A stretch of DNA of 64,000 nucleotides from Phoenicibacter congonensis (GTDB lineage Bacteria > Actinomycetota > Coriobacteriia > Coriobacteriales > Eggerthellaceae), in the NCBI RefSeq assembly GCF_900169485.1, contig NZ_LT821227.1, forward strand, positions 992,001 through 1,056,000, written 5' to 3'. Shown here in pieces: positions 30,596-34,433 of the stretch. Under the pieces are notes generated by a model. That model had not been told where the DNA came from. It worked only from the letters and a program-made list of their open reading frames with translations, and did not search any database. The position numbers were made by a program, and so were the translations under genes. Every line of letters starts with the position of its first letter. Position 1 is the stretch's first letter.

Positions 30596-31669
30596 TTAGG
30601 ATTCAGTCGACTTGCCTGTTGTCTTTGCTGTTTTATCTTTTTCTTTTGGAGTTGAACTTGTCGCACTTTCATCATCTGTTGCTGGAAGATTAAAGGATTT
30701 TCTGATGTTTGACTCAATTTCTCGAAGCATTGTCGGGTTGCTGTTTAAGAAAGCCTTTGATGCTTCTCTTCCCTGTCCAAGTCTTGTGTCGTTGTATGAA
30801 AACCATGCTCCACTTCTGTTTAAAACACCGCAAGTGATGCCGGCGTCTATAACACACGATGCCTTTGACACACCCTCACCGAAAATAATGTCAAATTCAG
30901 CTTTCCTGAACGGAGGCGCAACTTTGTTTTTGACCACTTTAGCTCGAACTTTGTTGCCAATTATCTCATTGTCACTTTTGATTGACTCAACTCGTCGAAT
31001 TTCTATGCGAACGCTGCTGAAAAACTTCAAGGCTCGACCGCCAGTAGTTGTTTCAGGGTTTCCAAACATTACTCCAATTTTTTCTCTTAATTGGTTGATG
31101 AAAATGCAAGTGGTGTTTGATTTAGACAATGATCCTGTTAATTTCCTTAAAGCCTGACTCATTAGTCGTGCTTGCAGGCCAACAGTCGCATCTCCCATTT
31201 CGCCTTCAATTTCAGCTCGTGGAACAAGTGCCGCCACTGAATCAACTACAATGCACTCGACAGCACCGGAGTGAACTAACATGTCGCAAATTTCGAGCGC
31301 TTGTTCGCCTGTGTCAGGTTGAGAAATTAAAACATTGTCAATGTCAACGCCAAGTCTTGCGGCATATATTGGGTCCATTGCGTGTTCTGCATCAATGAAA
31401 GCCACAGTTCCACCTTGAGCTTGAGCTTCAGAAAGAATTTGTAATGCAAGCGTTGTTTTTCCACTTGACTCTGGTCCATAAATCTCAACAATTCTTCCTT
31501 TAGGCACGCCACCGATTCCAAGAGCAATGTCAAGGGGCAAAACACCAGTCGGAATTGCGTCAACATTCAGGTGAACGTTGTCGCCCAATTTCATTATCGA
31601 ACCCTTGCCGAATTTCTTTTCTATTTGCTCTGTTGTGTTTCTTAAAAGTTCTTCTTTGTTTGAATCCAT
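30596..31669 (-). CDS. recA: Recombinase RecA
   Basis: A 357-residue RecA, the strand-exchange ATPase and SOS co-protease. The N-terminal helix leads into the Walker A motif GPESSGKT, followed by [17 protein letters not shown] (Walker B) and the L1/L2 loops ([18 protein letters not shown]). The C-terminus is a low-complexity Ser/Thr/Lys tail. ATG 31669 is chosen over an ATG four codons upstream because GGAG lies six bases before it. No canonical SOS box was found in the 323 bp upstream. Confidence 0.97.
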
Positions 31670-31992
31670 TTGAAACTCCATCTTTCTAGTTCAATTATCG
31701 TTTATTTCTTATGAGCTTCTTTTTTATGAAACTCAAATTTTGTGATTCTGATTATTAAATTGAAAAATGAATAAAAAGGTCATTCAATTGTGAATAAATC
31801 AGTTATTGAAAAGTGAAAACGAAATGTTTGAATTAGTGAATAGTTTGTGAATGAACTGATGATTAATTACTGATAAATGAACTGAAGGTAAGGTGTTTGA
31901 ATAGTGTTGCAGGAAATGAACATAAACTGTTCAAATTGCGTTAAATGAGTGAGGTAATGGGTGTTTGAAATGTTTTGAATAAATGAATGTGG
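31670..31992. other. Gap upstream of recA
   Basis: A 323-bp AT-rich region, presumably carrying the recA promoter. It is rich in short GAATAAATG / GTTTGAA words. GAACATAAACTGTTC at about 31917-31931 has GAAC/GTTC half-sites, but with a 7-bp spacer rather than the 4 bp of Gram-positive LexA sites, so I do not call it an SOS box. No gene is seen. Confidence 0.6.
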
Positions 31993-33141
31993 CTAGTAGA
32001 CATTAACTGCATTTTGAAGATGCTTTATAGCTTCTAAAACAGTTTGTTCTCTCACTTCATTTCTGTTTCCGTCAAAGTGAAGCTCAAATGTCTTAGGGGT
32101 GTCGCATTTATCAGTTGCAATCCCCATGAACACGGTTCCAACGGGTTTACCAGGCTCTTCACCTCCTGGCCCAGCAATTCCTGTAACTGAAACTGAGATG
32201 TTTGCAATTGACAATTTCAGCGCCCCTTTGGCCATTTGTTCCGCTGTTTCTGCGTTGACTGCACCATTTTTTAGGAGACTTTCATAATCAACATTAAGGG
32301 CGTCGCGTTTTAGTTCGTATGCATAGCTGGAAACTCCTCCAACTACAACTTCTGATGAACCAGCAATAGATGTCAAAGCAGCACTAATTAACCCTCCTGT
32401 GAGGCTTTCTGCCGTAATTACTTTTAAGTTTTTCTTCTTTAGTTGCTCAAGCAGCATGTTAGTTTGTTTACTAATTTCGTCTTCAATGAATTGTTCTTCT
32501 GCAGAAGTTTCACTTTTGAGCATTTTTACAAAACCATTAATGTAGTCAAGCATTGAGATGATGGTTAAAACAAGAGCAATAATCATTACTGCCCATGCCA
32601 CAACATAGAGCGGGTCTAACCAAATTTCTTGTGTAGTAGCTGGACTCATTCCTTCTTTTAGCAAGAACAAAATGATTGCAAGAATTTGAAATGTCATTTT
32701 GAATTTTCCATACCAGCTAGCAGCTATAACTGTGCCTTTGCTTGCAGCTAGCATGCGAATTCCAGAAACAATAAACTCACGGGCAATGATTATTATGACG
32801 GGCCATGAAGGCAAGACGTTTAATTCAATTAGGGCAAGAAGTGCTGCTATAACAAGCATTTTGTCAGCGAGTGGGTCCATGAACTTGCCGAAAGTTGTCA
32901 CTTCATTTCTTGAACGAGCAAGATATCCATCAACAAAGTCGGTTAAAGAGATAAGCACAAAAAGAACAGTTGCAATTATTGCTTTTTCATGGTTTCCGAT
33001 AAAGTTGTCAAGTCCAAAAAGCAATGGCCAAGGCGACAATAGCGCAGCCACAAAGACTGGAATTAAACAAACCCTACAAATCGTGATAATGTTTGCAGGT
33101 GTTTTAATTCTGTCTTCTATATTTCTTTTTTCTTGGCTCAT
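31993..33141 (-). CDS. pgsA: PgsA-CinA fusion: phosphatidylglycerophosphate synthase and PncC-type amidase
   Basis: A 382-residue two-domain protein. Residues 10-210 are a CDP-alcohol phosphatidyltransferase with several membrane helices and the catalytic motif DFVDGYLARSRN...GKFMDPLADK, making phosphatidylglycerol phosphate. Residues 228-380 are a CinA C-terminal (nicotinamide mononucleotide deamidase, PncC) domain with AESLTGGLISAALT and VTGIAGPGG. Both domains look complete. The frame is continuous with a charged linker between them. In many bacteria pgsA and cinA are adjacent separate genes before recA. Here they are one protein, keeping the order pgsA-cinA-recA. It starts eight bases after rimO. 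Confidence 0.92.
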   Translation of the reverse strand: MSQEKRNIEDRIKTPANIITICRVCLIPVFVAALLSPWPLLFGLDNFIGNHEKAIIATVLFVLISLTDFVDGYLARSRNEVTTFGKFMDPLADKMLVIAALLALIELNVLPSWPVIIIIAREFIVSGIRMLAASKGTVIAASWYGKFKMTFQILAIILFLLKEGMSPATTQEIWLDPLYVVAWAVMIIALVLTIISMLDYINGFVKMLKSETSAEEQFIEDEISKQTNMLLEQLKKKNLKVITAESLTGGLISAALTSIAGSSEVVVGGVSSYAYELKRDALNVDYESLLKNGAVNAETAEQMAKGALKLSIANISVSVTGIAGPGGEEPGKPVGTVFMGIATDKCDTPKTFELHFDGNRNEVREQTVLEAIKHLQNAVNVY

Positions 33142-33149
33142 GGGTAAAT

Positions 33150-34433
33150 CTATTTCGCTTCCCCTTCAAGGTCATATAGCAAACTGTCAATCATTTCAGC
33201 TTCAACAACTTGACCCGGCATACCTTTGTCTACATAAACGAGTCCGTCAACTTCTGGAGCTTGAAAAAGAGCTCTGCCATAAAGCTGGCCGTCCTCTTCT
33301 TGTCCTTCTATAATCACTTTATAGGTTTGACCCATGCGCTCACGAATTTTTGAAGCAGCAATTGAATCGACTAAATCTGTAATCTCGCCTAGGCGATATG
33401 ATTTTTCTTCTTCATCAACTTGATCTGGATAGTCATGCGATGCAGCATCATCTTCGTTTGAATAGGAAAAAACTCCAACATAATCAAAGATTCCAAGCGA
33501 TGCAAAATCAAGAAGTTCTTGAAAGTCATCATCGGTTTCACCTGGAAAACCGACCATTAAAGTAGTTCTCAGGGTTACGTCAGGAATAATTTCTTTAATT
33601 CTATTGATTCTTGCCATGAAATCTTGAGCTGATCCTGTTCGTTTCATGTCTCGCAAAACGTGTTCACTGACATGTTGAAGAGGAATGTCTAGATAGTTGA
33701 TGATATTGTTGTTTTTTTGAATAGCAAACAATAAATCGTCAGTCACTTCATCAGGCTGAACATACAAAACTCTAAAGTATGTGTCTGGAAATTTTTGTGC
33801 AATGAACTCCAAAAGACCAGCTAGGGTTTGTTTCTCACTAAAATCTCTTCCCCAGTGCCCCGTGTCTTGAGCCACAAAATTAATTTCTTTAGCACCAGCA
33901 TCGACTGCATTTTTAACATCAGATGCAATTTGTTCCATTGTATAGGAATGATATTTTCCTCTAATCAAAGGGATGGTGCAAAATGCACAAGTGCGATCGC
34001 ATCCTTCAGAAATTTTTACATAGGCACTGATAATTCTGTCAACGTCAGACTCCACTAATTCATTTTTTTTGGTAGGAAGTCCAATGAGACTTGAGACTAC
34101 CTCAACAACGTTGTGTTCATCGGCACAAGGCAGAAATGCATCAACTTCCGGCATTTGATCGCTTAGATTAGCAGCATACCTCGATGGCATACAGCCAGAG
34201 ACAACAACAGCGACGTTGCGCTCATTTTTAATGTCGAGAAAATCAAGAACAGTATCAATGCTTTCTGAAGTTGCTGATTCTATGAATGAACAAGTGTTTA
34301 TAATAAATAGGTCTGCTAGTTCATAGTCGTCGGTGATTTGGTAACCAGCTTTTTTTAGCTTGGTTGCCATTTTCTTAGAGTCAACCTCGTTTTTGGCACA
34401 CCCAAGTGTGTTGATATAAATTGTTTTATTCAA
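33150..34433 (-). CDS. rimO: Ribosomal protein S12 methylthiotransferase
   Basis: A 427-residue radical-SAM methylthiotransferase. It has an N-terminal domain with NTLGCAKNEVDSKKM and NTCSFIESA, a radical-SAM motif in SEGCDRTCAFCTIPLIRG, and a C-terminal TRAM domain. The 'GCAKN' opening and the EGCDRxCxFC motif separate RimO from MiaB. It methylthiolates Asp in ribosomal protein S12. It is closely packed with yajQ upstream and the pgsA-cinA fusion downstream, and is likely in one transcript. Confidence 0.96.
   Translation of the reverse strand: MNKTIYINTLGCAKNEVDSKKMATKLKKAGYQITDDYELADLFIINTCSFIESATSESIDTVLDFLDIKNERNVAVVVSGCMPSRYAANLSDQMPEVDAFLPCADEHNVVEVVSSLIGLPTKKNELVESDVDRIISAYVKISEGCDRTCAFCTIPLIRGKYHSYTMEQIASDVKNAVDAGAKEINFVAQDTGHWGRDFSEKQTLAGLLEFIAQKFPDTYFRVLYVQPDEVTDDLLFAIQKNNNIINYLDIPLQHVSEHVLRDMKRTGSAQDFMARINRIKEIIPDVTLRTTLMVGFPGETDDDFQELLDFASLGIFDYVGVFSYSNEDDAASHDYPDQVDEEEKSYRLGEITDLVDSIAASKIRERMGQTYKVIIEGQEEDGQLYGRALFQAPEVDGLVYVDKGMPGQVVEAEMIDSLLYDLEGEAK

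Follow-up and report, generated by a model that had tools for sequence, protein, structure and literature searches.

The window, i.e., the whole 64,000-nucleotide stretch of Phoenicibacter congonensis DNA analysed here, carries an open reading frame that runs from an ATG at 33,141 to a stop ending at 31,993 with zero internal stops, and that joins a phosphatidylglycerophosphate synthase (PgsA) to a PncC domain (Table 1). Its start lies 8 bp from rimO, and the minus-strand order is rimO, fusion, recA, and RNase Y, with every neighbour exceeding its NCBIfam cut-off; the order before recA reported in an earlier note on this DNA is thus correct when read on the minus strand. Beyond RNase Y follow a SpoVS protein and MiaB, and the upstream side holds a YajQ-type protein, a RodZ-like protein, and an FtsK-type translocase. 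The RodZ-like and FtsK-type proteins score under their NCBIfam cut-offs, with HTH and RodZ_C over those of Pfam. We take the region to resemble pgsA-cinA-recA-rny of B. subtilis. Among 140 loci compared, which span only about 2 kb per side, 125 are flanked by both rimO and recA on the strand of the locus itself. By family, this holds for 60/64 loci of the window's own family, Eggerthellaceae (f1; other families are given as codes from f2 onward), 28/30 of f2, 12/12 of f3, and 6/12 of f6, whose contigs are short.

Table 1 Features of the pgsA-pncC locus, in window positions
Feature	Positions	Strand	Basis or remark
pgsA-pncC fusion gene	31993..33141	minus	one 382-aa frame
PgsA domain (CDP-alcohol phosphotransferase), residues 16-195	32557..33096	minus	PF01066, TIGR00560, AlphaFold2, Foldseek 7drj/7drk
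CDP-alcohol phosphotransferase catalytic motif, residues 68-93	32863..32940	minus	conserved, 75/75 fused rows
End of last membrane helix and linker, residues 201-227	32461..32541	minus	linker table, model
PncC (CinA C-terminal, NMN deamidase) domain, residues 228-377	32011..32460	minus	PF02464, TIGR00199, residue mapping
rimO, upstream neighbour	33150..34433	minus	TIGR01125 430 bits, cut-off 357
recA, downstream neighbour	30596..31681	minus	TIGR02012 544 bits, cut-off 325
Gap between fusion and recA, 311 bp	31682..31992	minus	27% GC, TTCA-rich on recA-sense strand

The gap between the fusion and recA contains 17 TTCA on the recA-sense strand vs 2.9 expected from composition, together with a base skew of 63 C vs 22 G, and in a window-wide scan it alone reaches at least 12 TTCA (or TGAA) per 300 bases. 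By eye, the corresponding gap of a relative (L037) is also TTCA-rich. A regulatory array, a Rho-site-like leader, and low-complexity drift are all possible readings of this stretch. Rfam at gathering thresholds returned one tRNA within the window, and promoter and terminator scans of the window yielded about as much as shuffled sequence.

Both halves of the frame cover nearly the whole of their profile models, all above cut-off. Pfam CDP-OH_P_transf (PF01066) scores 151.6 bits (cut-off 22; model positions 4-152 of 152) and Pfam CinA (PF02464) 160.7 bits (cut-off 23.5; positions 6-153 of 155), with NCBIfam adding 153.8 bits for TIGR00560, pgsA (cut-off 109.1; model 4-182 of 183), and 134.4 bits for the PncC domain of TIGR00199 (cut-off 68.9). 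The Pfam search at E 0.01 gave no PF00994 (COG1058/MoCF) match in the protein. The fusion protein has the sequence and structure features of PgsA as well as those of PncC, and it lacks the N-terminal COG1058/MoCF domain by which a two-domain CinA is recognized. The view of the earlier note that a single frame joins a complete CDP-alcohol phosphotransferase to a complete PncC domain is borne out in both respects.

An AlphaFold2 model with 54 fused proteins as input reached a pLDDT of 93.7 against a pTM of 0.76, such that the mutual placement of the halves is not fixed by the model. Long helices are modelled at residues 15-35, 50-77, 83-106, 112-134, 143-165, and 177-209, which we read as six membrane helices; after residue 209, a connecting helix from 214 leads into the PncC alpha/beta fold. 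In Foldseek, the PncC half aligns to 2A9S with a TM-score of 0.91-0.92 on target, and the PgsA half to 7DRJ/7DRK with 0.78-0.82 on target (0.82 for 7DRK). None of the 50 matches listed spans both halves credibly, and a viral fold search likewise returned matches to single halves. The active site of the CDP-alcohol phosphotransferase family faces the cytosol; because six membrane helices place both ends of a chain on the same side, the PncC half is predicted to be cytosolic as well. The earlier note had proposed that the fusion tethers NMN deamidation to the membrane, a proposal that the six helices, the connecting helix, and the PncC fold make well grounded by inference: the PncC domain is probably anchored there.

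Across fusions, linker length varies between 6 and 191 aa, and except for the residues directly following the final membrane helix, the linker sequence is unconserved by eye. The longest linkers are found in L217 (G321; 191 aa), L227 (G273; 124 aa), and L199 (G005; 80 aa). Such a hypervariable linker fits a loose tether better than it fits channelling or tight allostery. A tightly coupled enzyme, in which PgsA responds to NMN on the PncC half or a metabolite is channelled from one half to the other, would accord with the covalent 1:1 link kept across f1; however, the known reactions share no metabolite, and the variation of the linker in length and sequence argues against such coupling, which we consider very unlikely. 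A functional coupling of NAD recycling to phosphatidylglycerol synthesis would thus be hypothetical, and the arrangement would be one of tethering without channelling.

Residue conservation and substitution patterns were used to assess the integrity of the two halves. In the PgsA half, D68, D71, G72, A75, R76, G85, D89, and D93 are invariant in all 75 fused rows; residues 68-93, with their four Asp, constitute the CDP-alcohol phosphotransferase motif. The PncC catalytic dyad, S246 and K278, is invariant in the same 75/75 rows, as are S263 and Y273, with T320 being Thr in 70 and Ser in 5 of the 75, and R360 being Arg in 73/75, Thr in one, and a gap in one. These residues were mapped via the 2A9S alignment, in which the chain numbers count two ahead of those used in PMC5384747. 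According to that paper, alanine mutants of A. tumefaciens CinA S31 and K63, the equivalents of S246 and K278, are inactive, and C32A is active with lower efficiency; the Cys32 position is occupied by Leu in 41 and Cys in 34 fused rows, the window protein having Leu. Some CinA-domain proteins, e.g., E. coli YfaY, are inactive on NMN, as stated in PMC3855486. Across nine chosen pairs, NG86 dN/dS lies below 1 for PgsA in 9/9 (0.05-0.53) and for PncC in 8/9 (0.10-0.38), the window pair being saturated for PncC, and in 9/9 pairs compared, the identity of the PncC half is below that of the PgsA half. Judged from sequence, both halves look like ordinary working enzymes, and both activities are predicted.

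An internal start releasing a separate PncC was considered and rejected. Between the domains, 18/78 fusions have no ATG, GTG, or TTG, and strong ribosome-site-like starts occur there in 18/78 (23%) vs 17% of 549 within-gene stretches; at separate pncC genes they occur in 35/49, above the inter-domain rate in fusions. The signal is therefore unconserved and near the within-gene background, which, together with the fusions devoid of any such start codon, indicates that the fused form is no general cover for two products. Single genomes (L021, L207) have a good internal start candidate, and PncC may be freed by proteolysis in the cell.

In the genome of the window, nadD, nadE, and an NAD-dependent DNA ligase are present above cut-off, so that a route exists from ligase-derived NMN, by way of deamidation, back to NAD. 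A profile search of this genome found no second CinA domain and no COG1058-CinA half; its two PF00994 matches lie elsewhere, apart from its single CinA match. The other CDP-alcohol enzyme of the genome (C1:1103191) was rejected as a second PgsA, scoring 72.6 bits vs the cut-off of 109.1, which the fused copy alone exceeds; it best fits ClsA, with 106.7 bits, under the cut-off of 240. By these profile scores, the fused gene seems to be both the sole canonical PGP synthase and the sole NMN deamidase of the genome.

Outside the window, the same genome carries an ObgE-NadD fusion in one 662-aa frame (G000:C1:1228577-1230562; L243:1465-3453, minus), with both parts above their NCBIfam cut-offs. NadD uses the product of PncC, and two consecutive NAD-recycling enzymes are thus found at the C-termini of unrelated housekeeping proteins. 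Among the matches listed for the 80 genomes searched, only the window genome has this frame unbroken and at full length, and the same-genus G001 gave no usable ObgE-NadD match. A second ObgE-NadD candidate, of 699 aa by genome search in G081, was rejected, being on reading two genes with a stop between them; frame lengths from the genome search can read through stops.

The fusion is a family trait rather than a feature of a single genome. The frame is also unbroken in the nearest relative, at 71-73% identity, and a CinA match occurs in 126/138 f1 genomes, exactly one in each; of the f1 genomes with completeness of 90% or more and contamination of 5% or less, 92/92 have one CinA domain. The frame is at least 351 aa long in 121 of the 126 CinA-bearing genomes, and among the short ones, those of G401, G407, and G363 run to contig ends and that of G406 starts inside the PgsA domain. 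Where domain content was read directly, 59/60 f1 loci with both domains covered are fused, representing 45 genera. This count comprises 132 loci with both domains, hand-picked at about 1-3 per genus and not random. Elsewhere in it, fusions are found in f6 (9/11), f5 (2/2), f7 (2/2), f10 (1/1), and f2, where 2/28 loci are fused, both in genus g54, and the genes are otherwise kept apart; none of 28 loci is fused in f3, f4, f8, f9, and eight more families. Separate pgsA and pncC thus occur in f2 (26/28), f3 (12/12), f4 (3/3), f8 (1/1), f6 (2/11), and others. Pfam places both domains in a single chain for six loci from f1, f2, f5, f6, f7, and f10. The survey of Coriobacteriia proposed in the earlier note therefore places the fusion in f1, four other families, and one genus of f2.

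The 132 loci remained from 141 tree loci after nine were left out: L160, L192, and L197, in which one domain is truncated, although in all three a single frame contains portions of PgsA and of PncC; L193, L195, L196, and L231, f1 pieces with a single domain; and L190 and L191, f2 loci with no PgsA match. Further fused f1 loci (e.g., L013, L015, L020, L025) were omitted as repeats, and L138 and L186, which have a long open frame upstream, were counted as separate. A set of 80 genomes, also hand-picked and not random, includes 77 with a CinA match (all except G289, G351, and G390). When 396 genomes were sampled across the phylum, 38 of them from this class, every full-length unbroken match among those listed belonged to f1, a fusion matched only in pieces being invisible in this sample. 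On the Bacillota side, where the best 80 of 357 relatives were taken and 79 loci (L038-L116, with Bacillota or uncultured bacterium titles) were read, 0/79 show the fusion, many of these loci being cut by contig ends, and 37/79 have a separate PncC frame near pgsA.

A local frameshift, an assembly error, or a chance open frame could be suspected given that other families have separate genes with a stop between them, the very pattern that the earlier note named as a sign of a local mutation. Such relatives do occur, but outside f1; with 59/60 f1 loci fused, the frame is not a local mutation. It is unbroken in the nearest relative, neither half shows decay, and the family survey refutes an artefact. 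An assembly frameshift, for which the earlier note had advised a check, is excluded because the genome is a single contig of 1,447,956 bases with one CinA match and the nearest relative has the same frame. We regard the chance of any such error as practically nil. The one separate f1 locus (L194, G384) has a TAA stop after pgsA, then five bases and an in-frame ATG of pncC, and sits beside the fused sister L198 of the same genus, which looks like a split inside f1. With two separate genes in G384, the family can evidently do without the fusion. If it is not a MAG artefact, L194 is a useful natural control.

The gene order predates the fusion, pgsA being found across relatives beside a full cinA, beside a short pncC, or fused. 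Full-length cinA with N-terminal MoCF/COG1058 neighbours pgsA in five Pfam-tested loci of f9, f12, and f15, and short pncC lacking MoCF/COG1058 does so in two Pfam-tested loci of f2 and f3; the frame table suggests short pncC in the rest of f2, f3, f4, and f8, and also in f11, f13, and f14. In many f2/f3 loci, pgsA and pncC are in the same frame, one stop apart, so that stop loss would be enough for fusion. As a plausible route, cinA would first have shed the COG1058 pyrophosphatase domain at its N-terminus, and the operon neighbours within an old rimO-pgsA-cinA-recA cluster would then have merged, which is the order of steps that we infer. In the joined-domain tree, f1 forms one clade (support 94, not starred), f3, f4, f5, f6, and f7 are starred clades, and g54 falls inside a starred f2+f3 group. 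The full joined-domain gene tree requires nine switches between fused and separate forms, and under parsimony a history of several fusions is indistinguishable from one of fewer fusions followed by later splits. A clade of all fused rows was rejected with p-AU 0.00017 (89/132 rows, f1 thinned) and, with genus g54 removed, 0.00006, both values being confounded by the separate rows nested in f1 and f6. As these rows would break any all-fused clade even after a single ancient fusion with subsequent splits, we limit our claim to the statement that changes between fused and separate forms recur.

The recurrence bears directly on the main rival explanation, i.e., that the fusion is neutral in origin and maintenance. 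Packed operon genes would have merged by stop loss with no benefit of the fusion itself, both halves possibly being active, and the merged form would persist since neither half can be lost and a split would call for a new start site. In most separate loci of the class, the two genes abut or overlap, PncC frames stand near pgsA also in the 37 Bacillota-type loci mentioned above, the linker has no conserved length, and fusion, fission, or both recur in the nine changes on the gene tree; the ObgE-NadD frame, unseen among the matches listed for the 79 other genomes, also suggests easy mergers. However, the retention of the fusion in 59/60 f1 loci across 45 genera and the separation of the genes in 38/40 loci of f2 and f3 are steadier than free switching predicts, although stability by itself is no proof of benefit. 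We give this neutral explanation slightly less than an even chance, and the fusion may or may not bring a functional advantage.

Our preferred reading, which we consider probable, is that of a bifunctional membrane enzyme, derived from the fusion of operon neighbours, in which a PGP synthase domain and a cytosolic NMN deamidase domain work independently. The N-terminal half would be a canonical phosphatidylglycerophosphate synthase embedded in six membrane helices, converting CDP-diacylglycerol and glycerol 3-phosphate into PGP and CMP, and the C-terminal half would be a single-domain, cytosolic NMN deamidase (NMN to NaMN) hung on the linker, thereby feeding NMN that the NAD-dependent DNA ligase releases back to NadD and NadE. 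Most likely, neither reaction depends on the other, and the fusion would fix how much of the genome's only identified NMN deamidase is made, 1:1 with the lipid enzyme, and where it is placed, at the membrane.

As recA adjoins the gene, we also considered that the PncC half serves RecA and not NAD, with a membrane-held CinA domain recruiting RecA as proposed for pneumococcal CinA. A CinA-RecA complex is cited in the literature, and the same-strand rimO and recA flanks are nearly constant in f1, but this gene order holds also where cinA is separate, the deamidase residues are kept, and a 2024 study (PMC11708029) reports no CinA role in pneumococcal transformation or MMS tolerance; we consider a RecA function improbable. 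As an extension of the bifunctional enzyme, ligase-released NMN sensed by PncC could adjust acidic-phospholipid synthesis by PgsA, or NMN recycling could be held at membrane sites of replication or repair, in which case the protein would tie DNA replication to membrane synthesis. We regard this as a long shot, and direct NMN allostery on PgsA in particular is disfavoured because of the variable linker.

PgsA is a dimer and usually essential. For annotation, the PgsA equivalog name would mask the NMN deamidase, and organisms with the fusion could be mis-scored as having none. The architecture joins two well-known enzymes and is maintained across one bacterial family; in it, CinA has swapped its usual N-terminal partner, COG1058, for an operon neighbour, and the natural split and fused forms allow the value of the membrane tether to be tested.

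A literature search of open-licence articles found no paper on a PgsA-PncC fusion, in agreement with the earlier note, whose author did not know the fusion as characterised. PMC3855486 mentions occasional fusions of the CinA domain with other domains, which that study left aside, and a PgsA-PncC fusion may be drawn in its architecture figure. The fusion may also exist in database listings, as any domain search shows it and the CinA fusions mentioned in that paper are of unspecified kind.

Compared with known systems, the fusion shares with PgsA (TIGR00560; 7DRJ/7DRK) the whole fold, the catalytic motif, and an equivalog-level score, and differs from it by the C-terminal soluble enzyme domain. 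With the single-domain CinA of A. tumefaciens (2A9S), described as a dimer in PMC4246079, it has in common the entire fold, the catalytic Ser/Lys, and the ligand residues, the structurally matched part being 43-44% identical, and it differs by having an integral membrane enzyme as its N-terminal partner. In two-domain CinA (COG1058 + PncC; T. thermophilus, 4CT8), PncC is likewise the C-terminal part of a bifunctional protein, and full-length genes of this kind occupy the same place beside pgsA in f9, f12, and f15, but the partner in the fusion is PgsA instead of COG1058. In AF2299 (4O6M) and IPCT-DIPPS (4MND), a CDP-alcohol phosphotransferase of the membrane likewise carries an additional soluble domain, which is cytidylyltransferase-like and attached to other subfamilies, whereas the additional domain of the fusion is an amidase acting in NAD metabolism. 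To judge from sequence, the fusion would work like the two separate enzymes, and its novelty lies in the architecture.
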